64,000 nt of DNA, taken from IMG/VR virus record IMGVR_UViG_3300023184_003849, positions 1-64,000 of that record. The stretch is one strand, 5' to 3'. Under the pieces are notes generated by a model. The model did not search any database, had not been told where the DNA came from, and was given only the letters and a program-made list of their open reading frames with translations. The DNA is from a virus. Made by a program: the position numbers and the translations under genes. Below, piece after piece: positions 38,046-64,000 of the stretch (position 1 is its first letter; every line of letters starts with the position of its first letter).

Positions 38046-38136
38046 ACCCTGGTGGCGAAATTGGCAGACGCACTTCTCTCAAAAGGAAGAAGGAAAAACA
38101 CCTAAGTTGTGAGTTCGAATCTCATCCAGGGTACCA
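38046..38136 (+). tRNA. tRNA-Leu(CAA)
   Basis: Acceptor ACCCTGG/CCAGGGT, anticodon loop CTCAAAA (CAA), long variable arm, canonical TTCGAAT T-loop, A73 and encoded CCA. Confidence 0.95.
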
Positions 38137-38140
38137 TGTT

Positions 38141-38232
38141 GGAAGATAATGCAGGTGCGTTGGTGCGCCGACTGGCCTTGAAAACCAGGTTCCGAGAAAT
38201 CGGATGGGGTTCGACTCCTCTGTCTTCCGCCA
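38141..38232 (+). tRNA. tRNA-Ser(TGA)
   Basis: Acceptor GGAAGAT/GTCTTCC, loop CTTGAAA (TGA), long variable arm, G73 and encoded CCA. The pair closing the anticodon loop is C-A, a mismatch. Confidence 0.93.
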
Positions 38233-38238
38233 AGTTGT

Positions 38239-38312
38239 TCGGGAATAGTGTAATGGTAACACCACAGACTTTGACTCTGTTATTCTAGGTTCGAGCCCTA
38301 GTTCCCGTGCCA
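38239..38312 (+). tRNA. tRNA-Gln(TTG)
   Basis: Acceptor CGGGAA/TTCCCG with an unpaired T1-T72, which suits Gln tRNAs that favour a weak first pair. Loop CTTTGAC (TTG), G73 and encoded CCA. Confidence 0.92.
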
Positions 38313-38344
38313 AAACAACTGTTGTAAAAACGCAACAGCCAGCA

Positions 38345-38373
38345 TTGACCAATAATCCAGTTGATGCTACAAT
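38345..38373 (+). promoter_or_regulatory. Sigma-70-type promoter inside the tRNA array
   Basis: TTGACC at 38345-38350 and TACAAT at 38368-38373, spacer 17. It would serve the ORF at 38410 and tRNAs from Glu onward. Confidence 0.7.
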
Positions 38374-38409
38374 AGAACTTAACAAAGCAACAAAGTAGAT
38401 CGCGACTGG

Positions 38410-38634
38410 TTGCACAAGATCTTTAAAATCAACAAAGAGGTTACCAGACCCGTTAGTGGCGTTGGTAGAGGTTGTGAGTGTACCGGCGGGTACACGCCTA
38501 CTACCAGTCATGAAGCCGGCTCTCCCCCTGGCGGGGTGATCCAGAAAAGCGGCGGATCGTCTGGCAGTAATGACCGTGGTGACTTGGCCTCGCAAGCCAA
38601 GCAGAACGAGATCCACAACGGTTCCTCAATGTAA
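38410..38634 (+). CDS. Possible Gly/Ser-rich small protein
   Basis: 74 residues from a TTG start; no ATG or GTG start is available in frame and no clear ribosome site is seen. The sequence is Gly/Ser/Thr-rich (RGCECTGGYTPTTSHEAG, then PPGGVIQKSGGSSGSNDRG), with a CxC pair. A promoter lies just upstream. It fills most of a 330-base gap between tRNA-Gln and tRNA-Glu that otherwise shows nothing. Confidence 0.4.
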   Translation: MHKIFKINKEVTRPVSGVGRGCECTGGYTPTTSHEAGSPPGGVIQKSGGSSGSNDRGDLASQAKQNEIHNGSSM

Positions 38635-38642
38635 AACTACAT

Positions 38643-38718
38643 GCTCGGTTCATCTAGTGGCCCAGGATAGTGCCCTTTCACGGCATTCACACCGGTTCGA
38701 ATCCGGTACCGAGTACCA
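38643..38718 (+). tRNA. tRNA-Glu(TTC)
   Basis: Acceptor GCTCGGT/ACCGAGT (first pair G-T), loop CTTTCAC (TTC), canonical T-arm, encoded CCA. Confidence 0.95.
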
Positions 38719-38724
38719 AGGTTT

Positions 38725-38871
38725 TTATAGTCAAGCATCGATAAGGTATCGTGGCAGGACGCTGTCACTATGCGGGCCCAACCGGCCGGGAACGGGTCCT
38801 AATATAACTGCATCGGCTGTGGAACGGAAGCACCGGACTCCTAAATTGGCATTCTCGGTGCTTGACTATAA
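38725..38871 (+). ncRNA. Candidate structured RNA B between tRNA-Glu and tRNA-Asp
   Basis: TTATAGTCAAGCA (38725-38737) pairs perfectly with TGCTTGACTATAA (38859-38871); the stem extends four more pairs inward with one G-T. Inside, GTGGCAG/CTGTCAC and GC-rich GGGCCC and CCGGCCGG segments can form further hairpins. It fills the whole gap between two tRNAs. Confidence 0.6.
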
Positions 38872-38877
38872 GAATTT

Positions 38878-38952
38878 GGTCTCAAAGTGTTCATGGACGC
38901 ACACGAGCCTGTCACGCTCGAAGAAGGGGATCGTTACCCCTTGAGACCGCCA
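38878..38952 (+). tRNA. tRNA-Asp(GTC)
   Basis: Acceptor GGTCTCA/TGAGACC pairs fully; stem CGAGC/GCTCG around CTGTCAC (GTC); G73 and encoded CCA. The T-stem AGGGG/CCCCT encloses ATCGTTA in place of a normal TTCGANN loop. Confidence 0.88.
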
Positions 38953-38957
38953 AGTTT

Positions 38958-39020
38958 GAAGCCACACCGCCTGGGCACTTCTCTCAGCAATGAGACACTA
39001 GGTCCTGCAACCGTGGCTTC
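38958..39020 (+). ncRNA. Candidate structured RNA F after tRNA-Asp
   Basis: GAAGCCAC (38958-38965) pairs with GTGGCTTC (39013-39020). Inside, CCT/AGG and TCTCA-GCAA-TGAGA form a stem with a GCAA tetraloop. It ends eight bases before the ATG of the FeoA-like gene, so it may instead be a 5' leader fold controlling that gene. Confidence 0.5.
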
Positions 39021-39027
39021 TCCCTTT

Positions 39028-39294
39028 ATGGAGTTGACCGTGACTGATACATTACGAGACTTGTTGTCAGGTGCCTCAGCCATCATTGACCATGTTGCAG
39101 GCAATCACAGTTATAGCACAAGATTGCAGTCCATGGGATTTCAATCAGGACAAACTATTCGGGTTCTCAGAAGAACCGCTCATGTCATGCATGTTCGCGT
39201 GGGTAGTACTGAGTGGGCCATACGTGATCAAGATGCAGAATTAGTAAAAATTATTCCGGAAAACCCGAGCAAGGTGCATGGGCGTGACTGTTAA
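39028..39294 (+). CDS. FeoA/SH3-like domain protein ending inside tRNA-Asn
   Basis: 88 residues from ATG 39028. TRLQSMGFQSGQTIRVLRR and MHVRVGSTEWAIRDQDAELV match the FeoA core (small SH3-like barrel). FeoA assists ferrous iron transport, but no FeoB is present here, so the role is unclear. The last 13 codons and the stop lie within the tRNA-Asn gene; the TAA is in its anticodon loop. No clear ribosome site precedes the ATG. Confidence 0.65.
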   Translation: MELTVTDTLRDLLSGASAIIDHVAGNHSYSTRLQSMGFQSGQTIRVLRRTAHVMHVRVGSTEWAIRDQDAELVKIIPENPSKVHGRDC

Positions 39295-39333
39295 TCACTG
39301 GTTAGAAGGGTTCGATTCCCTTATCCGGAGCCA
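39255..39333 (+). tRNA. tRNA-Asn(GTT), overlapped by upstream CDS
   Basis: Acceptor TCCGGAA/ATCCGGA (last pair A-A mismatch), loop CTGTTAA (GTT), canonical T-arm, G73 and encoded CCA. Its first 40 bases also encode the end of the FeoA-like protein. Confidence 0.9.
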
Positions 39334-39337
39334 AATT

Positions 39338-39412
39338 GCCTCTGTAGTATAATGGATAATACACTGGTCTACGAAGCCGGGAATTGTGGTTCAATTCCAT
39401 ACAGAGGCTCCA
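39338..39412 (+). tRNA. tRNA-Arg(ACG)
   Basis: Acceptor GCCTCTG/CAGAGGC, loop CTACGAA (ACG, wobble inosine expected), T73 and encoded CCA. Confidence 0.93.
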
Positions 39413-39417
39413 TTCAT

Positions 39418-39491
39418 GCCCCTTTAGTTTAAAAGTAAAACAGACGCTTGATAAGCGTCAGTCGGAGGAGCGTTACCTCCCGGGGGTACCA
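39418..39491 (+). tRNA. tRNA-Ile(GAT) with variant T-loop
   Basis: Stem GACGC/GCGTC around TTGATAA (GAT); D-stem GTTT/AAAC; T-stem GGAGG/CCTCC encloses AGCGTTA instead of TTCGANN. The acceptor GCCCCTT/CGGGGGT has wobble pairs and one mismatch. A73 and encoded CCA. Confidence 0.85.
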
Positions 39492-39511
39492 GTTTTTAAA
39501 AGGAGAATGCG

Positions 39512-39640
39512 ATGAAACGCAAGATGACCGTCAGGCAACGTAACCCCTTCGTTGCATTGGCTATGAAAAGAAAAGCGGGTAGCCATCGAAAAACCAACAA
39601 AGAGGTTCGTCGATTAGATAAAATGCGAGGCTATAGTTAA
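39512..39640 (+). CDS. Small basic phage protein (42 aa) ending inside tRNA-Lys
   Basis: 42 residues, very basic: MTVRQRNPFVALAMKRKAG followed by SHRKTNKEVRRLDK. I remember near-identical small proteins in many phages; function unknown, nucleic acid binding likely. AAAAGGAG precedes the ATG well. The final codons and stop lie in the 5' end of tRNA-Lys (14-base overlap). Confidence 0.75.
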   Translation: MKRKMTVRQRNPFVALAMKRKAGSHRKTNKEVRRLDKMRGYS

Positions 39641-39702
39641 GCGGTTATAACATCACCCTTTTAAGGTGTAAGACCTCGGTTCGAATCCGAGTGGCCCTAC
39701 CA
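39627..39702 (+). tRNA. tRNA-Lys(TTT), overlapped by upstream CDS
   Basis: Acceptor GAGGCTA/TGGCCCT with one A-C mismatch, D-stem GTT/AAC, loop CTTTTAA (TTT), canonical T-arm, A73 and encoded CCA. The stop codon of the small basic protein lies in the D-arm. Confidence 0.9.
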
Positions 39703-39804
39703 TATGAAAACACATTGTGGCGAGTTTATGAGTAGCCTGGGAACACGGCAGTAGACCCAATATGTCATAACGTTAGCCTGATATCAGCAATGTGTTTCCA
39801 TATG
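39701..39804 (+). ncRNA. Candidate structured RNA C between tRNA-Lys and tRNA-His
   Basis: CATATGAAAACACATTG (39701-39717) pairs with CAATGTGTTTCCATATG (39788-39804) over 17 bases with one mismatch. The stem includes the last two bases of tRNA-Lys and the G-1 of tRNA-His, so it physically brackets the gap. The interior holds a GGG/CCC pairing and a CTGATATCAG palindrome. Confidence 0.6.
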
Positions 39805-39878
39805 GTGTCCATAGTTTAGTGGCAAAACCGCGGGTTGTGATTCCGCTATCATGAGTTCGATTCTCATTGGATACCCCA
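39804..39878 (+). tRNA. tRNA-His(GTG)
   Basis: Encoded G-1 pairs with C73; acceptor GTGTCCA/TGGATAC; loop TTGTGAT (GTG); encoded CCA. Confidence 0.95.
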
Positions 39879-39879
39879 A

Positions 39880-39954
39880 GGATGAGTAGCATAATGGCAG
39901 TGCGCCTCCTTCATACGGAGTAAGGTGGTAGTTCGACTCTACCTTCATCCACCA
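39880..39954 (+). tRNA. tRNA-Met(CAT), elongator or Ile2-type
   Basis: Acceptor GGATGAG/TTCATCC, loop TTCATAC (CAT), class I variable loop, A73 and encoded CCA. It lacks the C1-A72 mismatch of initiators. Whether C34 becomes lysidine (Ile2) cannot be read here. Confidence 0.9.
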
Positions 39955-39964
39955 AAATAGTTTT

Positions 39965-40041
39965 GCCCTGGTAACCGAATTGGTATAGGTACTGGTCTTA
40001 GAAACCAGGTTCTGAGAGTTCGAGTCTCTCCTAGGGCACCA
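39965..40041 (+). tRNA. tRNA with TAG anticodon (Leu-type codon) and short variable loop
   Basis: Acceptor GCCCTGG/CTAGGGC, D-stem ACC/GGT, stem CTGGT/ACCAG around CTTAGAA (TAG), canonical T-arm, A73 and encoded CCA. The variable loop is only five bases, whereas bacterial Leu tRNAs are normally class II. Confidence 0.88.
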
Positions 40042-40051
40042 CGTAGTTTAT

Positions 40052-40125
40052 GTCTTGTAAGTGTTACGGTAGCACATCAGTCTCCAAAACTGAGGGCTGG
40101 GGTTCGACTCCCTAACGAGACGCCA
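40052..40125 (+). tRNA. tRNA-Trp(CCA)
   Basis: Acceptor GTCTTGT/ACGAGAC, loop CTCCAAA (CCA), G73 and encoded CCA end. Confidence 0.95.
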
Positions 40126-40130
40126 AATCG

Positions 40131-40204
40131 GGGCTGGTAGTTAAATGGGATAACGGTGGCTTTGCAAGCCTCAGTTGGGAGTTCGATTCTCCCTCGGTCC
40201 ACCA
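40131..40204 (+). tRNA. tRNA-Ala(TGC)
   Basis: Acceptor GGGCTGG/TCGGTCC contains the G3-U70 identity pair of alanine. Loop TTTGCAA (TGC), A73 and encoded CCA. Confidence 0.94.
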
Positions 40205-40211
40205 AAAATTC

Positions 40212-40299
40212 GGAGGTATCGCATAGCGGTCGATTGCACGGGACTGTAAATCCTGCGCCCTACGGGGCCTCGGTGGTTCAAATCCATCTACCTCCACCA
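40212..40299 (+). tRNA. tRNA-Tyr(GTA)
   Basis: Acceptor GGAGGTA/TACCTCC, loop CTGTAAA (GTA), long variable arm, A73 and encoded CCA. Confidence 0.96.
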
Positions 40300-40302
40300 C
40301 TT

Positions 40303-40376
40303 GCCTCGTTCGTCTAATGGTAGGGCCGCGTGTTTACACCGCGCAGACGGCAGTTCGATTCTGTCACGAGGTACCA
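40303..40376 (+). tRNA. tRNA-Val(TAC)
   Basis: Acceptor GCCTCGT/ACGAGGT, stem GCGTG/CGCGC around TTTACAC (TAC), A73 and encoded CCA. Confidence 0.94.
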
Positions 40377-40405
40377 TTGACACACAATAGATAATTGTGT
40401 ATAAT
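40377..40405 (+). promoter_or_regulatory. Sigma-70-type promoter with dyad in spacer, for tRNA-Cys
   Basis: TTGACA at 40377-40382 and TATAAT at 40400-40405, spacer 17. ACACAAT and ATTGTGT form a 7-base inverted repeat exactly between the two boxes. That placement would suit a repressor site, but it may be chance. Confidence 0.8.
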
Positions 40406-40424
40406 ACATGTAAATAGAAACAAC

Positions 40425-40502
40425 GCAACGGTGGCAGAGTGGTCCAATGCATGGGATTGCAAATCCCAAAAGCCGCTGGTTCAAATCCAGCCCGTTGCTC
40501 CA
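40425..40502 (+). tRNA. tRNA-Cys(GCA)
   Basis: Acceptor GCAACGG/CCGTTGC, loop TTGCAAA (GCA), U73 as usual for Cys, encoded CCA. Confidence 0.95.
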
Positions 40503-40754
40503 AACGTTCCAGCGTCACTGGATACTCTGGTCCCAGAGGATGAGAAGTGTGATGACACACACGGGCGGTTCTGAAGAGTCAAATCTTCACAGTAGAGATA
40601 CTGCGGTCTAGCCTCAACCGGCGTTGGCAATACGAGAACTGATCCCTGTCGAGAAGCGGGTGGAGGCCGTGTGTGATGGTATATGAGAAAGACGGCGTAA
40701 TGGCACGAAAACTTGTATGCTTGATGCGGTATAATTACCGCCGGGGGACGCAGA
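40503..40754 (+). ncRNA. Candidate structured RNA D, multi-hairpin
   Basis: About 250 bases without a convincing ORF. Hairpins readable by eye: CTCTG-GTCC-CAGAG (40525-40538), GTGTG-ATGA-CACAC (40547-40560), GAAGA/TCTTC (40573-40588), CAGTA-GAGA-TACTG (40590-40603) and GCGGTA-TAAT-TACCGC (40726-40741). GCGTC and GACGC near the ends could close it. It does not match RNase P, 6S or SRP RNA as I know them. Confidence 0.5.
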
Positions 40755-40778
40755 GCATATATTAGGAGAATTATATGC
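40755..40778 (+). promoter_or_regulatory. Hairpin enclosing the ribosome site and start codon
   Basis: GCATATA (40755-40761) and TATATGC (40772-40778) pair perfectly around TTAGGAGAAT, which holds the AGGAG site. The ATG of the next gene lies in the 3' arm. The fold would hide the start and could act as a translation switch. Confidence 0.5.
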
Positions 40779-40927
40779 CAATGTATGAAACAACTGTGAG
40801 AACACCACAAGGTGAAGAAAAGAAAAAAATCTATGCGGACACACCGCAAGAGGCTAAGAAACTTTTTGAACAACTGTACGGTGGTCCAAGAGCAGTTCCG
40901 TATATTCCACATATTATTCCAAGTTAA
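40775..40927 (+). CDS. Small hypothetical protein (50 aa)
   Basis: 50 residues starting MPMYETTVRTPQGEEKKKI, then EAKKLFEQLYGG and a proline-rich end. AGGAG lies six bases upstream, and a second ATG two codons in is possible. I recall small phage proteins with an MPMY start; function unknown. Confidence 0.6.
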   Translation: MPMYETTVRTPQGEEKKKIYADTPQEAKKLFEQLYGGPRAVPYIPHIIPS

Positions 40928-40931
40928 TTAC

Positions 40932-41006
40932 CGCGGGGTGGAGAAGTAGTATCTCACTAGGCTCATAACCTAGAGATCGGCGGTGCGATTCCGCCTCCCG
41001 CAACCA
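40932..41006 (+). tRNA. Initiator tRNA-fMet(CAT)
   Basis: CGCGGGGTGGAG start with a C1-A72 mismatch, the initiator hallmark; loop CTCATAA (CAT), A73, encoded CCA. The anticodon stem is AGG/CCT next to the loop rather than the usual three G-C pairs. T-loop TGCGATT. Confidence 0.93.
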
Positions 41007-41010
41007 ATCA

Positions 41011-41084
41011 GCCCCTATAGTTAAATGGCAGAACATCGGTTTTGTAATCCGAGGACGGGAGTTCGATTCTCTCTAGGGGCACCA
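41011..41084 (+). tRNA. tRNA-Thr(TGT)
   Basis: Acceptor GCCCCTA/TAGGGGC, loop TTTGTAA (TGT), T-T mismatch closing the anticodon loop, A73 and encoded CCA. Confidence 0.93.
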
Positions 41085-41107
41085 ATTTGAATAAGGAATT
41101 TTTCATT

Positions 41108-41812
41108 ATGAGATGTTTGGAAGAAATTCAAAAAGATAATTTACCAATAATTGTATTAGGGTCTTGTTTGAGTTTGCCCACTATAATCGAATCATGTGAG
41201 GCTTCTGGAAGAAAAATCATTGCAATAATTGATAATGATTATGTTGATCAAACAAACATGTATGGATTTCCAGTTTTTCAGGAATCTTGGCTTGATTCTA
41301 TAGAAACAACTCATTATGAATTTTTTATTGCTTCAGTTTGGACCCCAGGAAATCATGTTGTTACAAAACGTAGCAATAATAAAAGAGATCATTATATCAA
41401 TTTAATGCAAATTAAAAAATTAACAGGAGCAACAATAATTCATCCTAGTTGTGTGATTTCACCAAATGCATTGATCGGGAGGAATGTAAGAATTGGAGCA
41501 ATGACTGTGGTAGTTCATGGGACAGAAATCCATGATCACGTGCTGATCAAAGAACAGTGTTATATAAGTCACGACGTGAAAATTGGAAAAAATTCAGTAA
41601 TACAAATCAAAGCCTGCATCACTGGCCATGTACACATTGGAGCAAATACCTATATTGGAGTAGGCTCTACAATAATGCATCGCGTTCAATCAGCCGCCCC
41701 GACAATCATTGGTGACAATGTACTTGTTCATCCGAAATTGTTGGTCATTCAAGATTTGCCTAATGATTCTGTTGCCAGTTTGAAAAATAAAAAATATTCA
41801 AGAATCTTTTAA
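41108..41812 (+). CDS. NeuD-like sugar O-acyltransferase (left-handed beta-helix)
   Basis: 234 residues from ATG 41108 with AAGGAA nine bases upstream; a TTG at 41087 is the alternative. The N-terminus (PIIVLGSCLSLPTII) resembles the small Rossmann-like domain of NeuD/PglD. The second half shows hexapeptide repeats (VISPNALIGRNVRIGAMTVV, KIGKNSVIQ, HIGANTYIGVGS) of acyl-CoA-dependent acetyltransferases, with a His (SHDVKIG) placed like the catalytic one. It probably acetylates a sugar made by the phage pathways. The gene is AT-rich. Confidence 0.8.
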   Translation: MRCLEEIQKDNLPIIVLGSCLSLPTIIESCEASGRKIIAIIDNDYVDQTNMYGFPVFQESWLDSIETTHYEFFIASVWTPGNHVVTKRSNNKRDHYINLMQIKKLTGATIIHPSCVISPNALIGRNVRIGAMTVVVHGTEIHDHVLIKEQCYISHDVKIGKNSVIQIKACITGHVHIGANTYIGVGSTIMHRVQSAAPTIIGDNVLVHPKLLVIQDLPNDSVASLKNKKYSRIF

Positions 41813-42031
41813 ATCGTTTTGCAATTTTTTTAAATGAGAGAATCTTTTCATACGATTATAAATTTTGATTACGCCACGAGCGGCATGTTCCGGAAAAAAA
41901 ATAGGAAAAATTGCATGGATAAAACTACTCAATGACAAAAATAAAAGATGACCGCTATTGGTCAAACTATGTTTTAAATGATACCAATATGTCATTCGAC
42001 TATTTTCAAGATGAATTTTTGTGCTAATCAT
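41798..42031 (-). CDS. DUF6356-like small protein
   Basis: 77 residues if ATG 42031 is used; an ATG at 41995 (MTYWYH) would give 65. MTYWYHLKHSLTNSGHLLF and SFIHAIFPIFFPEHAARGVI resemble DUF6356 proteins near polysaccharide genes. It converges on and overlaps the acetyltransferase gene by 15 bases. One hydrophobic segment could sit in a membrane. Confidence 0.55.
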   Translation of the reverse strand: MISTKIHLENSRMTYWYHLKHSLTNSGHLLFLSLSSFIHAIFPIFFPEHAARGVIKIYNRMKRFSHLKKLQNDLKDS

Positions 42032-42092
42032 TGTATAATATTTATTTGATTTTTTGTACAATACAAAAATTAACTTTTTAATAGGAGTGTAA

Positions 42093-42341
42093 ATGCTAGA
42101 TTATATCATTACTTTTATTGCAGTATTTGCCACTGATTTGATCTACATTCTTTTTGTAAAATCAATTCAAGACAATCAGCCTTGGCGTGCCGCATGGTGG
42201 TCAATGGTTTGTACGCTCACAGCCTCAGTGGCTGTAATCAACTACACTGAAAATCACTTGGCCTTGATTCCAGCCCTGGCAGGTGCCTTCTTTGGTGCCT
42301 ATGTAGGCATGAAATACAAGAAAAAAATCATCTCCGATTAG
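42093..42341 (+). CDS. Small membrane protein ending inside tRNA-Pro
   Basis: 82 residues with three hydrophobic segments (LDYIITFIAVFATDLIYILFV, SMVCTLTASVAVI without the charged turn, LALIPALAGAFFGAYVGM) and a basic end. TAGGAG precedes the ATG by six bases. I recall similar small phage membrane proteins with no known role. The stop TAG lies at bases 8-10 of tRNA-Pro. Confidence 0.75.
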   Translation: MLDYIITFIAVFATDLIYILFVKSIQDNQPWRAAWWSMVCTLTASVAVINYTENHLALIPALAGAFFGAYVGMKYKKKIISD

Positions 42342-42564
42342 TATAGCCTGGTAGTACCCGTGGTTTGGGACCATGAAGCGGGAGTTCAAATCTCTCATCG
42401 GAGACCATAAGCGTTGTATCAAGCACAAACTCACGTGGAGGATTTATCAGTTGAGGATCTGGTACAAAGTCTCTGCGCACAGTAAAATACCCATGCTCTT
42501 GATAAACGCCTTCGGCAGCCACACGATACAATGCTTCAATGCCATGCTCGTTGTCATATTTCAT
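42328..42564 (-). CDS. Possible minus-strand CDS running antisense through tRNA-Pro
   Basis: 78 residues from ATG 42564. The first 55 (MKYDNEHGIEALYRVAAEG, then YFTVRRDFVPDPQL and FVLDTTLMVSDE) look like real protein. The rest is read antisense through tRNA-Pro and resembles the spurious peptides such reading produces. It may be a gene whose end was replaced by the tRNA. Confidence 0.4.
   Translation of the reverse strand: MKYDNEHGIEALYRVAAEGVYQEHGYFTVRRDFVPDPQLINPPREFVLDTTLMVSDERFELPLHGPKPRVLPGYTNRR
42332..42407 (+). tRNA. tRNA-Pro(TGG), overlapped by upstream CDS
   Basis: Acceptor CTCCGAT/ATCGGAG pairs fully, stem CGTGG/CCATG around TTTGGGA (TGG), A73 and encoded CCA. Its first ten bases carry the end of the membrane protein gene. 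Confidence 0.93.
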
Positions 42565-42577
42565 AGACCTATTTATT

Positions 42578-42653
42578 CTGGCGTTAGTATAATGGATCAA
42601 TACAGCGGGCTTCTACCCCGCGAATGTGGGTTCGATTCCTGCACGCCGGACCA
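42578..42653 (+). tRNA. tRNA-Arg(TCT)
   Basis: Acceptor CTGGCGT/ACGCCGG, stem GCGGG/CCCGC around CTTCTAC (TCT), A73 and encoded CCA. Confidence 0.94.
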
Positions 42654-42676
42654 CAGTTAAATAAAAGAAAGCACTT

Positions 42677-43150
42677 ATGAAGAAGATCAATCTAGACGAA
42701 GTAAAAGCGTTTATTGAAAAGCAAACTCCAGAGACCAAAATCTACTTGGGTTGCGACTCTGAACGTCTCAAAATCAACGGTGTCTGGCATGCTGATTATG
42801 TGCTGGCCATTGTGGTTCACATCAACGGCAACAACGGTTGCAAACTGTTTGGAGAAATTCAACGTGAACGAGACTGGGATCAAAAAGCCAGCCGGCCATC
42901 TATGCGACTAATGAATGAAGTGTACAAAATCAGCGAATTGTATCTAAAACTTCATGAAGTGTTAGAGGGTAGAGATGTCGAAGTTCATTTGGACATCAAC
43001 CCCGACGAACATCACGGATCAAGTTGTGTTATCAGCCAGGCTGTGGGTTACATCAAAGGTACCTGCAATGTCATACCTTTTGTCAAGCCTGATGCTTTTG
43101 CAGCCAGTTACGCCGCAGATCGTTTCAAAGGTCTCTCAAAAGTTGCATAG
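42677..43150 (+). CDS. RNase H-like nuclease fold protein (DUF458-like)
   Basis: 157 residues. IYLGCDSERLKI supplies the first Asp of an RNase H-like fold, VEVHLDINPDEHHGSS a later Asp, and VIPFVKPDAFAASYAADRF the end; this order matches the DUF458/YkuK group. It might process tRNA or other RNA, and it is placed among tRNA genes, but that is inference. Confidence 0.75.
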   Translation: MKKINLDEVKAFIEKQTPETKIYLGCDSERLKINGVWHADYVLAIVVHINGNNGCKLFGEIQRERDWDQKASRPSMRLMNEVYKISELYLKLHEVLEGRDVEVHLDINPDEHHGSSCVISQAVGYIKGTCNVIPFVKPDAFAASYAADRFKGLSKVA

Positions 43151-43157
43151 AACAACC

Positions 43158-43233
43158 GCGGATGAAGTGTTTTGGGTTACACGTCAGTCTTCCAAACTGA
43201 AATAGACGAGTTCGAATCTCGCCTTCCGCTCCA
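43158..43233 (+). tRNA. tRNA-Gly(TCC)
   Basis: Acceptor GCGGATG/CTTCCGC (one T-T mismatch), loop CTTCCAA (TCC), U73 and encoded CCA. Confidence 0.93.
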
Positions 43234-43236
43234 GAA

Positions 43237-43265
43237 TTGACAACACACTGAGTTTGTTGTATAAT
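43237..43265 (+). promoter_or_regulatory. Sigma-70-type promoter for tRNA-Ser(GCT)
   Basis: TTGACA at 43237-43242 and TATAAT at 43260-43265, spacer 17. ACAACA and TGTTGT form an inverted repeat within the spacer region, similar in placement to the 40377 promoter. Confidence 0.8.
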
Positions 43266-43274
43266 TACATTGAA

Positions 43275-43364
43275 GGAACGGTCCCATAATGGTATTGGAG
43301 CAGATTGCTAATCTGTCGGCTGGTTTAATCCGGCTTCGGGGTTCAAGTCCCCGTCGTTCCGCCA
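43275..43364 (+). tRNA. tRNA-Ser(GCT)
   Basis: Acceptor GGAACGG/TCGTTCC, loop TTGCTAA (GCT), long variable arm, G73 and encoded CCA. Confidence 0.95.
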
Positions 43365-43370
43365 GACAAT

Positions 43371-43445
43371 GCGGCTATGGCGTAGTAGGAAACGCATGTG
43401 CTTGCCAAGCATAAGTCACGAGTTCGACCCTCGTTAGCCGCTCCA
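43371..43445 (+). tRNA. tRNA-Gly(GCC)
   Basis: Acceptor GCGGCTA/TAGCCGC, loop TTGCCAA (GCC), U73 and encoded CCA. Confidence 0.95.
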
Positions 43446-43452
43446 GGTTGAG

Positions 43453-43637
43453 TAAAGAAAGCGTGTTAGAAACTCATTGACGATGGGCCCAACTATCAGG
43501 GACACTACGTTAATCCAGAGCCGCTGAACGGGCGAGAGCCGCGGTAGACTGCCAGTCACAGTCGTGTCATGCTTCTGGAGGGACGGGAGTGCAGAGATGT
43601 ATTCCGCACCCTTAAACACAAGATAGTGCTTTCTTTA
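43453..43637 (+). ncRNA. Candidate structured RNA E between tRNA-Gly and tRNA-Thr
   Basis: TAAAGAAAGC (43453-43462) pairs perfectly with GCTTTCTTTA (43628-43637), closing about 165 bases. Inner hairpins include GACTG/CAGTC, CCAGA/TCTGG and GTGC/GCAC. The string GGGCCCAAC is shared with element B. There is no ORF here. Confidence 0.6.
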
Positions 43638-43644
43638 TTTCATT

Positions 43645-43718
43645 GCTCTTGTAGTTAAGTGGCATAACGAATCCATGGTAAGGATTAATCGACAGTTCGA
43701 TTCTGTACTAGAGCACCA
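43645..43718 (+). tRNA. tRNA-Thr(GGT)
   Basis: Acceptor GCTCTTG/CTAGAGC (one T-T mismatch), stem AATCC/GGATT around ATGGTAA (GGT), A73 and encoded CCA. Confidence 0.94.
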
Positions 43719-43719
43719 T

Positions 43720-44421
43720 TTATTTCACAGTGGCTAGACGCAGAGTCTTGAGGATGCAGATGTACATCCAGCCTATGTCAAATTCAAACCAGCGTTGACT
43801 TAGACGAGGGCTTGCTGGGTCTAAGTGATGATTGTTGTGCAGTTCTTCCCCGCCAATCACAACGCCCCAGGGAATGATGTTTCTACTGAGGTCTCGAGTT
43901 TCGCCATTGCGATAGCCCCACCAGTGTGCTAGACCGTTGATCACACCAGCGGCCCAGAATGGAATCCATATCATCTGTATGCCCCAGATTATGGCGCCAA
44001 CCCAACCAAAGAGCCAGAGGTTGAGCACAAGGAAAATGCCAATGCCAAATCTACTGTGAGGAGTGTATATGTTGCGCTCCAGCCAATCAGCAGGAGTGCC
44101 GCGACCATATGTGCTAACCATATCTTTATCTTTTGATGCTTCATGATACAATATTGCTCCTTGAAATAACACTTGCCAGATTCCATACACATAAGGGCTA
44201 TGCGGATCACCTGCACAGTCACTGTATCTATGATGCTTGCGGTGTATGGCCACCCACTGACGTGTGATCATGCCTGTGGTGAGCCATAACCAAAATCGCA
44301 TGAAGTGTTCTATTAGGGGATGAAATGTTACAGATCGATGTGCTTGTGATCTATGCAGATACAGCGTGACGCAGGCTATGGTGATATGTGTTACTGTTAA
44401 AGTGTATAAGATTTCTGTCAT
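43720..44421 (-). CDS. Fatty acid desaturase (acyl-CoA delta-9 type)
   Basis: 233 residues with the three histidine boxes of membrane di-iron desaturases: HRSQAH, HRKHHRYSD and HNNHHLD, separated by hydrophobic segments. Its closest remembered type is the stearoyl-CoA/DesC delta-9 desaturase. It would insert a double bond into acyl chains of host lipids. It is on the minus strand between tRNA-Thr and tRNA-Arg, ending two bases from tRNA-Thr. This looks like acquired cargo. Confidence 0.9.
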   Translation of the reverse strand: MTEILYTLTVTHITIACVTLYLHRSQAHRSVTFHPLIEHFMRFWLWLTTGMITRQWVAIHRKHHRYSDCAGDPHSPYVYGIWQVLFQGAILYHEASKDKDMVSTYGRGTPADWLERNIYTPHSRFGIGIFLVLNLWLFGWVGAIIWGIQMIWIPFWAAGVINGLAHWWGYRNGETRDLSRNIIPWGVVIGGEELHNNHHLDPASPRLSQRWFEFDIGWMYICILKTLRLATVK

Positions 44422-44438
44422 TGCTTACTTATCCACAG

Positions 44439-44513
44439 CGGCCCTTAGTTCAATGGATAGAATACGTGGCTTCGAACCATGTGGTGGGAGTTCGATTCTC
44501 TCAGGGCCGGCCA
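44439..44513 (+). tRNA. tRNA-Arg(TCG)
   Basis: Acceptor CGGCCCT/AGGGCCG pairs fully, stem CGTGG/CCATG around CTTCGAA (TCG), G73 and encoded CCA. The 3' end of the minus-strand radical SAM gene reads antisense across it. Confidence 0.94.
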
Positions 44514-45578
44514 TCTATGTTTGTATATGTTTCCTACAACTGATTCAAATTCAAGTCTGTCTGCAGGGTCGTGTACTGACTCAAGTATTGTTTTGCTCAA
44601 AGTTTTTACAAATTCCTTTTGAGTCTTAGTAATTTTGTAATGTTGGCTTTGGTGTTGTAGGGACTCAACAATCTCTTGTTTTTCAGAGTCACGAAACACA
44701 GACCAACCAAGGTAACGTGGTTGCACCAAATTGGTCACTCGTGTTGATCTAAGTTGTCTATTACACCAGTCTAATGTAGGCACCAGTTGCTGGACATTCA
44801 GTACCTGTGCTACAAAATGAAAATTTATTTTGGCATCTGGCAATTGTTTCAGCAACAAAGATACATTTTTTGTAAATGTTTCCCATTCTGCTGGGTACCT
44901 CATGATTTCATAACCTTGTTCATACCCATCTATACTGATCTGTAATTCCAATTTGGACATTTTTTTTAATTTTTCTATATGAGAATCTAACAGCACTGTG
45001 GCATTGGTCACCACTCTAAATGGTATGTTTTTTTCAATTACAAAATCCATTATTTGTAGATTGTTTTTGGTCAGGAAAAATTCTCCGCCAATAACACTTA
45101 TACTTTCAATATCGCCAACTTTGTGCAATATTTCTAACTGTTTGTCGCTGGTATTTGTTTCTCTGCTAAAGTTGATTGCTTCAATACCGATACTGTGCCT
45201 TTCTTTGGCCAATGCTGTGCTATAGGAAGGCCCGCACATGACACATTTTAGATTGCACACATTACTGGGCATGATTTCGTATCTCACACCTGATAGATTA
45301 TTCAATGCCTGGTTGGCATGATGCCTATAACTGGTTTGTCCTTGTTCTTCTTGTTGCCTACAAGTTTGACACCCAGTGGGCCATGTTGTTGCTGTTTTTA
45401 ATTCCTGAATTTCTGCACTAGAATAATATTGTTCAAGAGTGCTGTAATGGTTACTTGTCTTGTATATGCAACAAGGCAAAACTTTTACTTGCGAGTCAGG
45501 AGTTGTGTCAAGTCGTATATTATGATGTATGGCAGCACAGTAGAAATTGTTCATAGAGTATTTAATTTGCGTATCCAA
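44445..45578 (-). CDS. Radical SAM protein with N-terminal auxiliary-cluster cysteines; 3' end antisense to tRNA-Arg
   Basis: 377 residues; start at 45578 or the ATG eight codons later. CNLKCVMC (Cys108, 112, 115) is the radical SAM core and SVIGGEFF the GGE motif. Before it lie Cys14, Cys36-37 and CQTC at 70-73, the same order as in the 5112 protein, suggesting paralogs with an N-terminal auxiliary cluster. The last 23 codons are antisense to tRNA-Arg, so the original C-terminus may have been replaced. Substrate unknown. Confidence 0.85.
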   Translation of the reverse strand: MDTQIKYSMNNFYCAAIHHNIRLDTTPDSQVKVLPCCIYKTSNHYSTLEQYYSSAEIQELKTATTWPTGCQTCRQQEEQGQTSYRHHANQALNNLSGVRYEIMPSNVCNLKCVMCGPSYSTALAKERHSIGIEAINFSRETNTSDKQLEILHKVGDIESISVIGGEFFLTKNNLQIMDFVIEKNIPFRVVTNATVLLDSHIEKLKKMSKLELQISIDGYEQGYEIMRYPAEWETFTKNVSLLLKQLPDAKINFHFVAQVLNVQQLVPTLDWCNRQLRSTRVTNLVQPRYLGWSVFRDSEKQEIVESLQHQSQHYKITKTQKEFVKTLSKTILESVHDPADRLEFESVVGNIYKHRWPALRESNSHHMVRSHVFYPLN

Positions 45579-45593
45579 TGACTGTAGTAATTT

Positions 45594-45669
45594 GCCCCTT
45601 AAACTAATCTAGTGAAAGTGCAGGACTGAAAATCCTGAAAGCCAGGAGCGTAACCTGGAGGGGGCACCA
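45594..45669 (+). tRNA. tRNA-Phe(GAA) with variant T-loop
   Basis: Acceptor GCCCCTT/AGGGGGC, loop CTGAAAA (GAA), A73 and encoded CCA. The T-stem CCAGG/CCTGG encloses AGCGTAA rather than TTCGANN, nearly the same as in tRNA-Ile(GAT). Confidence 0.88.
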
Positions 45670-46075: not shown

Positions 46076-46291
46076 ATGCGACCAGCAATGATTTGGATTT
46101 TGAGTTTCAGCGTATTGGGTCCTGAGCCGCACTATCAAGAAATACCCAAGTTCACCAGTCGCGAACAATGTGAAGCGGCCCTGCAACAAAAACGTGAAGA
46201 GTATCGTGCCCAGCGTAAACAGATTGCGGGCACTTGTACACAAAGCACTCAAAGTGCGCCCAAACAAACGCCAAGCATGCCGGCTCATTAA
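46076..46291 (+). CDS. Small protein with hydrophobic start and cysteines
   Basis: 71 residues. MIWILSFSVLG is hydrophobic, followed by FTSREQCEAALQQKREEY and IAGTCTQ. It has the same design as the 32409 protein. It may be exported or membrane-anchored. Function unknown. Confidence 0.5.
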   Translation: MRPAMIWILSFSVLGPEPHYQEIPKFTSREQCEAALQQKREEYRAQRKQIAGTCTQSTQSAPKQTPSMPAH

Positions 46292-46294
46292 TGG

Positions 46295-46323
46295 TTGACA
46301 AATAACTAAAATGAATATATAAT
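46295..46323 (+). promoter_or_regulatory. Sigma-70-type promoter of the tmRNA gene
   Basis: TTGACA at 46295-46300 and TATAAT at 46318-46323, both perfect, spacer 17. Transcription would start near 46330, just before the acceptor piece. Confidence 0.88.
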
Positions 46324-46405
46324 AACGAGAACAGCGTAAACTGTTATTGAGAAAAGGATTCTGGACGCGGGTGCGAATCCCGCCAGGTCCACCAAAAGAA
46401 TATTT

Positions 46406-46486
46406 ATGATTGAAGCAATTGGATTTTTTGTTACATTGTTAGTTTTAATGTGGATAGCAACAATCTTGGGTGAAATATTTTTTTGA
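46406..46486 (+). CDS. 26-residue transmembrane ORF inside the tmRNA intervening segment
   Basis: ATG 46406 to TGA 46486 reads MIEAIGFFVTLLVLMWIATI and six more residues, a single membrane span. It fills almost all of the segment between the tmRNA pieces and ends one base before the 5' piece starts. No strong ribosome site is seen (AAAAGAA upstream). Whether it is translated is unknown. Confidence 0.45.
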   Translation: MIEAIGFFVTLLVLMWIATILGEIFF

Positions 46487-46668
46487 TGGGCCTGATATAG
46501 ATTCGACAGGGTCAAGAGTAAAAGTAATGGCGCTCGGCAATGTAGAAGCCGTTAGGGTTGGGGATTCCCGGCCGAAGACACAAAAAACGTAAATGCAAAC
46601 GACGAACAGTTCGCTTTGGCAGCCTAAACACTGCCTAGGGTAGGAAATACCTCGTAACAGAAACCACC

Positions 46669-46692
46669 AAGCCCACTTCGGTGGGCTTTTTC
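46669..46692 (+). terminator. Rho-independent terminator of the tmRNA gene
   Basis: AAGCCCAC-TTCG-GTGGGCTT, an 8-base stem with a UUCG tetraloop, followed by TTTC. Confidence 0.9.
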
Positions 46693-46708
46693 TTGGCTAA
46701 ATATCGGC

Positions 46709-47293
46709 ATGATAGTTTATATTCACGGTGCCAGTGCCACCGCCGAAAGTTTCACACACATAAGAGAATACGTCAGAGAGCATACAGAACTGCCAGATAC
46801 TGCCTTGGAATACAAAAGCGATGATGGGTTTGATAACAATCTTGGTCGCATGATGGGTCAACTGGATGAGGCCGAACGGCTGTTCTTTGTAAGTCACAGC
46901 CTGGGTGGTATCTATGCCTTGTACTTGGCCAATCACTATCGTGACCGCACCCTGGGTGGTGTGAGCCTAAGCACACCCTATGGCGGAAGCAAACAGGCTG
47001 ACTTTGCCAGATACTTTTTGCCATTCAATCAACTCATGAAAGACGTGGGCACTATGAGTGAGCCCATGGCAGAATCTCGTAGACTGCCAGCACCACCTAA
47101 CTGGACCAATGTTGTGACCACTGTGGGCGACAGTCCTTGGATTGTTGAACCCAATGACGGGGTAGTGACCTTGGCCAGCATGAGATATCGCAAAGACTTT
47201 GAACTGGTAGAATTGCCACTCAATCACTATGAAGTTGTGCTGAGCAATCAAGTGGTGCGACTGATCTTGGACCGGATTCAGCAGGCCTTATGA
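46709..47293 (+). CDS. Alpha/beta hydrolase (lipase/esterase-like)
   Basis: 194 residues. VYIHGASATAESF is the HG oxyanion region, FFVSHSLGGIYAL the nucleophile elbow (Ser in SHSLGG), EPNDGVVTLASM carries the Asp and LNHYEVVLS the His. All four landmarks are in order. It may cleave a lipid or another ester. It begins 17 bases after the tmRNA terminator and overlaps the next gene. Confidence 0.85.
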   Translation: MIVYIHGASATAESFTHIREYVREHTELPDTALEYKSDDGFDNNLGRMMGQLDEAERLFFVSHSLGGIYALYLANHYRDRTLGGVSLSTPYGGSKQADFARYFLPFNQLMKDVGTMSEPMAESRRLPAPPNWTNVVTTVGDSPWIVEPNDGVVTLASMRYRKDFELVELPLNHYEVVLSNQVVRLILDRIQQAL

Positions 47294-54849: not shown

Positions 54850-55176
54850 ATGGCCAACTACCAGCCCCAACATTCTGATCTTTCTCAATCCCGCGAAGTC
54901 AAAATAATTGACGGCGTACCAATTGCGTTTAGCGACGTGGTTGTGCATCACTTTCCCATGGGCGATGTAGAAGATCCAGACTTGTATGCGGCCGACCCTT
55001 TGTACAAATGGCAACAAAGCGAAGCCGGTACCTGGGTCATGGCTCATGCTGTGGAACCACCGTTTTGGGTTAGACAACCGGATATCGAGTCATACGGATA
55101 TCGCTACTATATTGTGGCCAGGTTGAAAGAGCAAGATCAAACTTATTTTAAACTAAAGTGGGGAAGCATCAAATGA
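54850..55176 (+). CDS. Conserved phage protein, unknown function
   Basis: 108 residues, rich in aromatic residues: GVPIAFSDVVVHHFPMGD and DPLYKWQQSEAGTWVM. I recall similar short phage proteins, uncharacterised. The start is close to a possible promoter, with AAGG just before the ATG. Coupled to the epimerase gene by ATGA. Confidence 0.65.
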   Translation: MANYQPQHSDLSQSREVKIIDGVPIAFSDVVVHHFPMGDVEDPDLYAADPLYKWQQSEAGTWVMAHAVEPPFWVRQPDIESYGYRYYIVARLKEQDQTYFKLKWGSIK

Positions 55177-56132
55177 AATTTTTAGTAACAGGCGGCTTGG
55201 GTCTCATTGGACACAACGTAGTGCAACGTCTACAAAAGCGTGGCGAAGAAGTTGTTATTGTAGACAATCGCACCACGTATGGTATTATACCACAAGACGA
55301 ACTAGACTATCTAATGGCAGAACGTTGGAAAAAGATTGACCAGACAGATGTATACTACACAGACATTGCTGATGGTGCCAAGTTTGATCAAATTGTAAAG
55401 AATCACAAACCCGAAGTGATCATACACATGGCATCATTTCCTAGACAGAAAGTTGTCAACGCTAATCCTGCTCAGGGTGCTAGGGTCATGATGGAAGGTT
55501 TAATGAACATTTGTGAGAGTGCCAAATCGCATGGTGTGGAGCGTGTGGTATATATAAGTTCAAGCATGGTGTACGGGGACTTTGAAGACCAAGTGACGGA
55601 AGAAGCCGAGTGCCGGCCTATTGGTCAATACGGAATTATGAAACTCTCAGGAGAAGACATTGTCAAAGACTACCATAGACGCGGCTGTTTTGACTACGCT
55701 ATTGTTCGGCCTAGTGCTGTATACGGGCCACTTGATGTGGAGGACAGGGTGGTTGCAAAATTTATGCTCCAGGCCATGCGTGGTGATGTTCTCCGAGTTA
55801 ATGGAGCCTCGGAAACACTTGATTTCACGTATGTCGATGATGCGGCAGATGGTATTGTGGCGGCGGCAACAAGAATTATGGCGGCAAATCGTACATATAA
55901 TATTACCAAATCGCATTCGGTAAGTTTGTTAGAGGCAGCAGAAATGATTGTTAAGATTGTGGGCAAGGGCACCATTGAAGTACGCGATAAAGATGCAGAC
56001 TTCCCTAGTCGTGGTGCGTTGTGTATTGATCGCGCACGAGTGATCCTGGGCTTTGATCCCCGAGTAGATGTAGAACAAGGATTCCAAAATTACTACAAGT
56101 GGTTGAGTGAATCGCCTTACTGGAACAAATGA
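55173..56132 (+). CDS. NAD-dependent epimerase/dehydratase
   Basis: 319 residues from ATG 55173. TGGLGLIGHNVVQ binds NAD; SSSMVYGD and IGQYGIMKLSGE give the Ser and YxxxK catalytic residues; FTYVDDAADGI is the usual VDD motif. It belongs to the extended SDR sugar-modifying group; exact reaction unknown. It is directly followed by an aminotransferase, a common pair for amino-sugar synthesis. Confidence 0.87.
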   Translation: MKFLVTGGLGLIGHNVVQRLQKRGEEVVIVDNRTTYGIIPQDELDYLMAERWKKIDQTDVYYTDIADGAKFDQIVKNHKPEVIIHMASFPRQKVVNANPAQGARVMMEGLMNICESAKSHGVERVVYISSSMVYGDFEDQVTEEAECRPIGQYGIMKLSGEDIVKDYHRRGCFDYAIVRPSAVYGPLDVEDRVVAKFMLQAMRGDVLRVNGASETLDFTYVDDAADGIVAAATRIMAANRTYNITKSHSVSLLEAAEMIVKIVGKGTIEVRDKDADFPSRGALCIDRARVILGFDPRVDVEQGFQNYYKWLSESPYWNK

Positions 56133-57223
56133 CCACTACCGGCCTTACTATCCCGTTTACTGGTCTAAGAAAACAGTATAATACCCTAAGAACAGAAATT
56201 CTGGATGTGACCGATGAAGTATTGCGTTCAGGCGTTCTCATGGGAGGCAACTATACTGCTGAATTTGAAAACTGGCTAGCACGAAAGAATCGTGTGAGTT
56301 ATGCTGTGACCTGCCACTCGGGCACACAAGCACTTGAAATCATAGCCGGATTCTACCGCGATCTGGACTTGGCCTTTGTCAATCCTCCCACAGTGATTGT
56401 TCCTGCCTTGACATACCCAGCCACTGCTAATGCTTTTTTACGTGCAGGTTGGTCGGTCATAATTGGAGATACTGACTACTATGGTCAGATTGACGTAAGA
56501 AAGATGGTCAATGATTTGGACACACACTATCATGCTGTGTGTGCTGTGGGCTTGTATGGCGCGGCCCTGCGTGACATGCCACCAGTTGAAAATCGAGCCT
56601 TGCTGATCGAAGATGCGGCCCAACACTGGTTAAGCAACGACTGCAAAAGACAAGGTGGGGCCGCGGCCATCAGTTTTGACCCTACCAAGAACTTGGCCAA
56701 CTATGGCAATGGTGGTGCCATAGTATCTGATGATAGAAACTTGCTGGACTATGCAAGAAACTGGGTAAACAACGGCAAGCATACCCGACATGACCAAACT
56801 GGGTCAAATTCAAGAATGAGTGAAACAGATTGTGCTCAAATGATGATCAAGACACGTTATATAGATGTCTGGCAGAAGCGCAGGGCTGAGATTGCCCGTC
56901 ACTGGATTGAACGATTAAAGAACACAGGCATACGTACACTAATCGACGATACTAACTTTTCAACGCATTGTTATCATAAGTTTGTGATCGATGTGGATTC
57001 CAGAGATGTTGTGCAACGCAATCTTGCTATACGCAAGATCGAAACCAAAGTTCACTATGCTGAGCCTTTGCACGAACTACCCGCGTATCGAAATCTTACT
57101 GGCCCGGATCTCCTGAGTCCAGCAAGTGCGTTGAGCCGACGCTGTTTAAGTTTACCTATCTACCCCGAGTTATCAGATCTCGAGGTAGAATACGTTATCG
57201 ATCAGTTGTTAGACCTCGTTTGA
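56129..57223 (+). CDS. DegT/DnrJ/EryC1 sugar aminotransferase
   Basis: 364 residues, full family length. IPFTGLRKQYNTL start, CHSGTQALEII, PTVIVPALTYPATANA, the Asp of LLIEDAAQ that contacts PLP, and the Lys segment ISFDPTKNLANYGNGGAIV. It transfers an amino group to a keto-sugar nucleotide, probably the product of the adjacent epimerase. It converges with the minus-strand gene, overlapping by 29 bases. Confidence 0.92.
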   Translation: MTTTGLTIPFTGLRKQYNTLRTEILDVTDEVLRSGVLMGGNYTAEFENWLARKNRVSYAVTCHSGTQALEIIAGFYRDLDLAFVNPPTVIVPALTYPATANAFLRAGWSVIIGDTDYYGQIDVRKMVNDLDTHYHAVCAVGLYGAALRDMPPVENRALLIEDAAQHWLSNDCKRQGGAAAISFDPTKNLANYGNGGAIVSDDRNLLDYARNWVNNGKHTRHDQTGSNSRMSETDCAQMMIKTRYIDVWQKRRAEIARHWIERLKNTGIRTLIDDTNFSTHCYHKFVIDVDSRDVVQRNLAIRKIETKVHYAEPLHELPAYRNLTGPDLLSPASALSRRCLSLPIYPELSDLEVEYVIDQLLDLV

Positions 57224-62553: not shown

Positions 62554-62651
62554 TTGTAGATAAATGGATCGCGTTTGCGGAGTTCTTTTAATTTTTTTCT
62601 ATACCGTATTTCTAGTGTAATACGATTCCAAAGTCTTTGAATCCAATTCAT
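62550..62651 (-). CDS. Tiny basic phage protein (33 aa)
   Basis: 33 residues, MNWIQRLWNRITLEIRYRKK followed by LKELRKRDPFIYK. I recall tiny phage proteins ending in RDPFIY; function unknown. Both ends overlap neighbours by four bases, which supports translation. Confidence 0.65.
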   Translation of the reverse strand: MNWIQRLWNRITLEIRYRKKLKELRKRDPFIYK

Positions 62652-63685: not shown

Positions 63686-64000
63686 TTTTCATCCACCACT
63701 CTGCCACTTCAGGGCGTTGACTTAATATATCTGTCAAGGTCACTGATTGTGTTCTTATTTGTTCTAGTTTGAGCACACGAGCCTTGCCTCGACGCAGTCC
63801 CTCCTGATATTGATCAGGCCACTGTTCCGCAAACGTGGGCCGGGTTTTTAATTGTAGCAGTACATCACGCATGGCACCTGCGGAGCGGCCTGCTAGTTCG
63901 TCAATCCAAGGGTCCAACAAATGCCTAGGCAGTGCCAAAGGACTCAAGATTATATCTGGGGAGAAACTGAATATGACCTTGGCCAACAGTTGTACCCCAT
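63678..64000 (-). CDS. Partial hypothetical protein (5' end beyond window)
   Basis: The frame stays open to the window edge, so the N-terminus is missing; a TTG at 63986 is the only in-window start and is unlikely. The visible part (KVIFSFSPDIILSPLALPRH, then a helical DELAGRSAGAMRDVLLQL) has no recognised domain. It belongs to the same minus-strand unit as the next two genes. Confidence 0.55.
   Translation of the reverse strand, partial: GVQLLAKVIFSFSPDIILSPLALPRHLLDPWIDELAGRSAGAMRDVLLQLKTRPTFAEQWPDQYQEGLRRGKARVLKLEQIRTQSVTLTDILSQRPEVAEWWMKIA

Follow-up and report, generated by a model that had tools for sequence, protein, structure and literature searches.

The window analyzed here comprises 64,000 nucleotides, positions 1 to 64,000 of the viral record IMGVR_UViG_3300023184_003849. 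By its gene content, the 121.8-kb record belongs to a T4-like tailed phage infecting bacteria: it encodes a T4-type portal protein (Pfam, 4e-101), baseplate wedge and hub proteins, a late sigma factor, SbcCD, a thymidylate synthase and a DNA polymerase. On the plus strand of the window, an array of about 25 tRNA genes (38046–45666, from tRNA/RNA gene predictions) precedes a tmRNA gene, which is flanked by two open reading frames (ORFs) in the same orientation. The upstream one encodes 71 amino acids (46076–46291; termed family X below) and ends four bases 5′ of the tmRNA promoter; the downstream one (46709–47293), weakly similar to α/β-hydrolases, serves as the syntenic anchor in 62 related viral loci. 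In other parts (5112–11497, 44445–45578 and 54850–63986), the window also encodes several radical-SAM proteins, two nucleotide-sugar epimerases, an aminotransferase and a NolO-like carbamoyltransferase, a set that suggests a glycan or nucleotide-modification cluster of the phage.

The tmRNA gene itself is a complete beta-type permuted (two-piece) tmRNA located at 46281–46693, as identified by Rfam models and ARAGORN. The beta_tmRNA model (RF01850) matches this interval over its full length (model positions 1–331) with 119.2 bits (cut-off 84, E=1.1e-35), which is the only match to this model in the 121,846-bp record. The merged model tmRNA_permuted (RF04321) is likewise fully matched (positions 1–213) at 46332–46627 with 120.8 bits (cut-off 47). 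A search of the locus with the permuted models had been proposed as a check in a first-pass annotation made from the letters alone, and both models score above their cut-offs. ARAGORN classified the tmRNA as permuted and reported the tag ANDEQFALAA with the label “Uncultured U02”.

A sigma-70-type promoter (46295–46323) lies within the promoter region covered by the RF01850 model and agrees with the consensus at 12 of 12 positions: TTGACA (46295–46300) and TATAAT (46318–46323), spaced by 17 nt. It is followed by the acceptor piece (46330–46394, with the start deduced from the –10 box), which represents the 3′ part of the tRNA-like domain including the T arm and ends with the acceptor strand CAGGTCC (46384–46390) and ACCA (46391–46394). 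After an intervening segment (IVS, or spacer) of 93 nt (46395–46487), the 5′ or coding piece (46488–46668) starts with the acceptor strand GGGCCTG (46488–46494) and contains the tag reading frame ANDEQFALAA-stop (46595–46627) and the pseudoknot region; its 3′ end was placed just before the terminator stem. The gene ends with an intrinsic terminator, AAGCCCAC-TTCG-GTGGGCTT plus a T run (46669–46692), in which the stem-loop of 8 bp occupies 46669–46688. The essential points of this architecture had been recognized by the first-pass annotation and hold up: the CCA-bearing piece ending at 46394 precedes the 5′ piece starting at 46488, as borne out by the sequence and Rfam, the acceptor stem forms in the permuted order only, with 46384–46390 pairing with 46488–46494, the tag is read in the same frame by ARAGORN, and the gene possesses a perfect promoter and a terminator of its own. 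The match to the Rfam model further indicates an uninterrupted T loop with no group I intron; the insert is the permutation spacer.

The G3-U70 pair in the acceptor stem is the recognition signal for alanyl-tRNA synthetase, and in the window it is formed by G46490 and U46388. No smpB gene or SmpB protein was detected in the phage record, and a working tmRNA would therefore have to use host SmpB. Taken together, the locus is, judging from its sequence, a beta-type permuted tmRNA gene that looks functional, carried by a large aquatic phage of the T4-like type. That such a tmRNA could control ribosome rescue in the host, as the first-pass annotation had suggested, is a reasonable inference.

We next consider how the tag is distributed. 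ANDEQFALAA gave 17 matches in 84,980 species genomes, all of them in one-piece tmRNAs with the exception of a 3-kb contig (L007) that is dense in tRNAs and phage-like in appearance. At least 119 viral contigs contain the same tag, in most cases as part of a permuted gene, and many of them preserve it with synonymous codon changes. Among 300 Burkholderiales genomes, 12 showed a beta-type permuted match above cut-off; the tag was readable in 11 of these and was ANDEQFALAA in none, all 11 having other tags. A strict phage-specific signature was nevertheless dropped as an interpretation, since viral permuted tmRNAs also use ANDERFALAA, ANDELFALAA, ANDSQFALAA, ANESRFALAA and further tags. The use of ANDEQFALAA in phage permuted tmRNAs is a preference and no rule.

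Two additional observations concern tags in other contexts. In three viral loci (L139, minus strand, 2904; L154, minus strand, 5354; L161, minus strand, 583), related phage proteins of about 90–100 amino acids have an exact ANDERFALAA-stop as their C-terminus, and this genome-encoded copy of an ssrA tag at the end of ordinary ORFs is possibly a built-in degron. A Pseudomonadota genome (L468, 1450–1900) contains a permuted tmRNA with an apparently doubled tag, ANDNVAFVAANDNTVVEVAVAA, and an unusually long spacer with tRNA-like stretches inside.

tmRNA genes are common integration sites, and the gene in the window could thus be a functionless remnant of a host gene, left behind by imprecise excision or copied as an attachment site. 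Such an origin has been proposed for the tmRNA of phage Melnitz (PMC9004378). For the window, we regard this explanation as extremely improbable: the gene is complete, with promoter, terminator and intact tag, the tag is conserved in many contigs despite synonymous codon changes and is found in just 17 of the 84,980 genomes, nearly always in a one-piece gene there, and the phage resembles a T4-type virus. Alternatively, the phage RNA could act as a decoy or inhibitor of host trans-translation and not as a working tmRNA, for which the tag-less tmRNA-like RNA of phage DS6A sets a precedent, as it inhibits the cell's own tmRNA in E. coli (cited in PMC11915505). This also seems very unlikely here, as the tag frame is complete and ends in ALAA, the alanine identity pair is kept, and no defect is apparent against the covariance models.

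Carriage of a tmRNA by a phage has precedents. A survey detected tmRNAs in 402 of 18,146 phage genomes, with 133 unique structures, 53 of which were two-piece forms, and 50 of these 53 came from marine or aquatic phages (PMC9004378). The tmRNA database of 2025 lists 79 phage sequences (PMC11915505), and huge phages with tmRNA and SmpB genes have been reported (PMC7162821). Permuted tmRNAs are also found in the sequenced isolates Marzo, XacN1, PA_L9 and Melnitz. The one of Marzo (L439) is annotated, with the tag VAANDDSYTVRIAA, while the beta-type genes of XacN1 (L440, 949–1368, tag ANANTFDYALAA) and PA_L9 (L441, 965–1349, tag ANDTSFDVRLAA) are absent from the deposited annotations. Because Marzo, XacN1 and PA_L9, which infect Stenotrophomonas, Xanthomonas and Pseudomonas, respectively, all possess the beta type, we rejected the use of this type as a predictor of the host. 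The first-pass description of the locus as a phage-encoded two-piece tmRNA is therefore confirmed with respect to the phage, given the T4-type portal, baseplate wedge, late sigma factor and SbcCD, but its assessment as unusual is overstated in view of the 53 published cases (PMC9004378) and the at least 119 viral contigs with the same tag. While phage carriage of two-piece tmRNAs is known, the protein-coding potential of their spacers, described in the following, is the newer part and appears to be undescribed.

Spacers were extracted from all fetched phage permuted tmRNAs, with boundaries defined by ARAGORN and Rfam where available, resulting in 174 distinct sequences. In 71 of them, a Shine-Dalgarno (SD) sequence just after the CCA is followed by an ORF filling the spacer, according to a stricter definition that allows read-through into the 5′ piece; these ORFs have lengths of 21–122 codons, and up to 151 codons in the wider set. 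Of the 85 SD-bearing spacers with a minimum length of 75 nt, 58 contained an ORF that occupies 75% or more of the IVS, compared with 4.0 on average and 9 at most after dinucleotide shuffling; when the minimum length was set to 180 nt, the fraction was 27 of 31. In spacers of at least 75 nt without an SD, such ORFs occurred in 4 of 47 vs. 4.4 expected. Two scans that were defined by the tag, and hence provide an estimate free of bias from selecting for the SD, revealed a cargo ORF in 26 of 116 distinct spacers, about one-fifth, and no SD-led ORF in the other 90.

The position of these ORFs relative to the tmRNA pieces is well defined. The start codon of the 71 ORFs is located 9–15 nt after the CCA, with a mode of 11 nt. 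A conserved TGAT immediately precedes the first nucleotide (G1) of the 5′ piece, and its TGA is the most frequent stop codon, used by 35 of the 71 ORFs; in 19, the frame runs on into the 5′ piece. The spacers of 40 bacterial permuted tmRNAs, by comparison, are 5–55 nt long (median 30.5) with complementary ends, and none of these 40 contains an ORF of more than nine codons. For the class as a whole, we regard the comparative evidence as secure that the spacer of phage permuted tmRNAs can serve as a protein-coding cargo slot. About 27 of 137 listed viral loci with tag or spacer (L021–L136) were missed by ARAGORN, and some of the missed loci, for example L022 (spacer of 342 nt) and L094 (284 nt), are genuine permuted tmRNAs, indicating that those with long spacers are likely under-annotated.

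A number of the cargo proteins could be assigned to known families: an 84-amino-acid thioredoxin with an intact CGPC motif (L321; PF00085, 4.1e-21), a DUF2061 membrane protein (L035/L051; Pfam 3.5e-20), a CxxCxxCC protein (L033/L081/L251; Pfam 1e-5, above cut-off) and an Oxidored-like domain (L028/L052/L119; Pfam 3.3e-12). The remaining cargo consists mostly of short membrane peptides or unknowns, with a membrane-like segment predicted in 33 of 71, and no endonuclease was found among the Pfam matches of the cargo. The carrier genes score as permuted tmRNAs against Rfam, with 136 bits for L321, 114 for L256, 115 for L037, 104 for L035, 97 for L348, 100 for L333, 79 for L282 and 129 for L094. 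The Oxidored-like ORF has a different layout: it lacks a start codon in the spacer (L028, L052, L119, L301 and, by sequence, L247 and L310), and in L028, L052 and L119 its frame opens at an ATG within the acceptor piece, crosses the tRNA-like domain, the CCA and the spacer, and terminates in the 5′ piece.

For 14 families, pairwise comparisons gave pN/pS values of 0.01–0.51 in the frame of the ORF and mostly higher values in the other two frames. Within this data set, the L096 entry of family F5 and the frame of F16 are unreliable because of mis-framing, F9 (0.51) is weak, and F17 has too few differences to be informative. In the oxidoreductase-like family, the changes are almost exclusively synonymous. 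The isolate Melnitz likewise contains an SD-led spacer ORF, which is absent from its deposited annotation; it has 18 marine relatives in viral contigs, a family pN/pS of 0.32 (six distinct sequences parsed) and an in-frame indel of eight codons. Where testable, the spacer-encoded proteins thus appear mostly to be under purifying selection. Assembly chimeras as a source of the spacer ORFs were rejected, since the same cargo is found repeatedly, in numerous independent contigs as well as in the genomes of four Melnitz isolates.

Cargo genes are not restricted to spacers. The family X protein encoded directly upstream of the tmRNA gene in the window is homologous to the IVS ORF of L037 (BLASTP, 42% identity, E=4e-21); members of this family reside inside the tmRNA IVS in L037/L351 and L096/L353 and are free-standing in L350 and L352. 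A second family, Y, comprises the IVS ORFs of L242/L260/L338/L341 and their homolog CDS 85 of Melnitz, a free-standing gene directly upstream of the Melnitz tmRNA. Two cargo families therefore also occur as free-standing genes directly 5′ of a tmRNA, one in the window and one in Melnitz. At the locus upstream of the anchor ORF, the content of the tmRNA spacer differs among relatives, from a hairpin of 23–25 nt to an Oxidored-like, 34-amino-acid, membrane, zinc-ribbon-like or 56-amino-acid ORF. This syntenic locus shows the spacer cargo to be diverse and exchangeable. One relative (L376) encodes an anchor protein with 89% identity and has no tmRNA immediately upstream; an alkylhydroperoxidase-like ORF (1900–2560) is found in its place, indicating that this locus does not always hold the tmRNA cassette.

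The spacer of the window contains a probable small gene, which was omitted from the first-pass annotation together with the kinship of the upstream gene to spacer-encoded proteins. This ORF (46406–46486) encodes MIEAIGFFVTLLVLMWIATILGEIFF-stop, a peptide of 26 amino acids with one membrane segment (Kyte-Doolittle maximum 2.6). Its ATG follows the CCA at a distance of 11 nt, and a single base separates its TGA from G1 of the 5′ piece, so that both start (11 nt) and stop (TGA|T) represent the modes of the class. No close relatives were found via the upstream ORF, the downstream ORF or the spacer start. The SD-like sequence AAAGA (46395–46399) is weak, one mismatch from AAGGA, and the window was classified as no-SD; in this group of spacers, the frequency of ORFs does not exceed that expected by chance.

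One could accordingly read the locus as an ordinary phage permuted tmRNA with a non-coding, helix-forming spacer, in which the 26-codon ORF arose by chance even though other phages carry cargo. The weak SD and the 90 of 116 phage IVSs without an SD-led ORF in the tag-defined scans are compatible with this reading, and in 12% of the shuffled window IVSs, an ORF spans 75% or more of the segment. The full start/stop signature, however, is present in just 0.9% of the shuffles, the modal start and modal stop coincide with a strong membrane segment, and the adjacent upstream gene is a member of family X, which other phages carry as IVS cargo. We therefore consider a chance ORF possible but rather unlikely, and favor the view that the spacer of the window probably encodes a single-pass membrane peptide of 26 amino acids.

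The ends of the spacers offer a possible link between cargo and tmRNA. In silico, the SD core is base-paired (probability >0.5) to the terminal 22 nt of the spacer in 81 of 82 precursors, compared with 26 of 82 after shuffling of the tail, and the SD strand forms the 5′ side of a helix that extends the acceptor stem in cargo-bearing genes. A corresponding helix of 11 bp is present in the window, where 46395–46405 pairs with 46473–46483 and continues the acceptor stem. Because the SD pairs with the 3′ end of the spacer, the last cargo codons double as the anti-SD strand. This dual use of the last codons explains why -Ser-Leu is the C-terminus of 19 of the 35 ORFs with their stop at the junction TGA, irrespective of the protein family. 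The excised IVS still forms the SD helix in silico (0.83 vs. 0.93), and the release of the SD by processing alone is thus not assured.

Maturation of permuted tmRNAs in bacteria involves cleavage at G1 by RNase P and trimming of the acceptor piece to its CCA by tRNA 3′ processing. We propose that the strong promoter would give rise to a single transcript that yields both the tmRNA and a small mRNA. Cleavage by RNase P directly in front of the coding piece, together with 3′ processing behind the CCA, would excise the tmRNA pieces and free a mini-mRNA consisting of SD, ORF and stop; alternatively, ribosomes could translate the ORF prior to processing. The shared helix could serve processing, hold back translation and thereby couple both. 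In infected cells, the tmRNA would then act together with host SmpB, AlaRS, EF-Tu and proteases to recycle ribosomes that have stalled on mRNAs undergoing decay. For the 19 ORFs that read into the 5′ piece, one may speculate that cleavage would leave a non-stop mRNA, that is, a substrate for the same tmRNA.

An alternative is that the spacer ORFs are real genes for which the tmRNA is merely a neutral landing site or source of a promoter, with the cargo translated from the unprocessed transcript and no regulatory coupling. The functionally unrelated cargo, swapped at one locus, is what such a slot would predict, but the pairing of the SD with the IVS end in nearly all precursors and in less than one-third of the shuffled controls argues against neutrality, since translation and the extended acceptor helix would then be physically linked. 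We rate this alternative as a serious contender of somewhat less than even probability. The overall explanation that we prefer, and which we hold to be quite probable on the available sequences, combines a functional-looking phage permuted tmRNA, a spacer that serves as a cargo slot, a probable peptide gene in the window and the one-transcript mechanism outlined above. More tentatively, in a model that we put forward as possible without expecting it to hold in full, the spacer would be an exchangeable expression slot in which tmRNA maturation and cargo translation are coupled through one helix comprising both the processing sites and the SD, and stop-less cargo would give rise to non-stop mRNAs that are rescued and tagged by their own tmRNA, resulting in an autoregulatory loop.

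A structural RNA gene whose discarded spacer recurrently holds unrelated, selected protein genes is apparently undescribed. Within the open-access journal literature searched, we found no published account of protein cargo in permuted tmRNA spacers and no paper that joins the term “intervening segment” with permuted tmRNA; the database paper of 2025 mentions spacers with a tRNA gene and a repeat, and does not mention protein cargo. Such cargo would add a hidden class of small phage genes that are passed over by both gene callers and tmRNA annotation, as in the case of the Melnitz spacer ORF, and would provide a natural example in which the same transcript is both ribosome-rescue RNA and mRNA. 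It also makes the role of the two-piece form testable, namely whether this form is kept because its spacer can hold genes, and Melnitz and its host are a cultured pair in which the cargo slot could be examined.

Compared with known systems, the gene in the window resembles the betaproteobacterial permuted tmRNAs (RF01850/RF04321), with which it shares the order of the pieces, the acceptor pairing, the tag frame and the placement of promoter and terminator. It differs in being phage-borne, in its tag, which is found in none of the 11 readable Burkholderiales genes, and in its spacer of 93 nt as opposed to 25–43 nt in the permuted tmRNAs of Burkholderiales. With Melnitz, a phage of Methylophilales (PMC9004378), it has in common a phage-encoded permuted tmRNA with a cargo-type gene just upstream, and Melnitz likewise has an ORF in its spacer, which is SD-led and selected; the Melnitz tmRNA, however, is of the alpha type, carries the tag ANDNYVPVDYALAA and is followed by a glutamine riboswitch. 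Nesting of a gene in a precursor segment that is removed is also known from tmRNA genes with homing-endonuclease genes in group I introns (PMC11915505), but here the segment is the spacer of a permuted gene, which would be removed by tRNA-type processing and not by self-splicing, and the cargo proteins are not endonucleases. Finally, a tRNA-Ala gene has been described inside one permuted tmRNA spacer (PMC11915505). This is likewise a gene nested in a spacer, but an RNA gene from a single metagenome bin, whereas the phage spacers described here hold recurrent protein cargo with its own SD.
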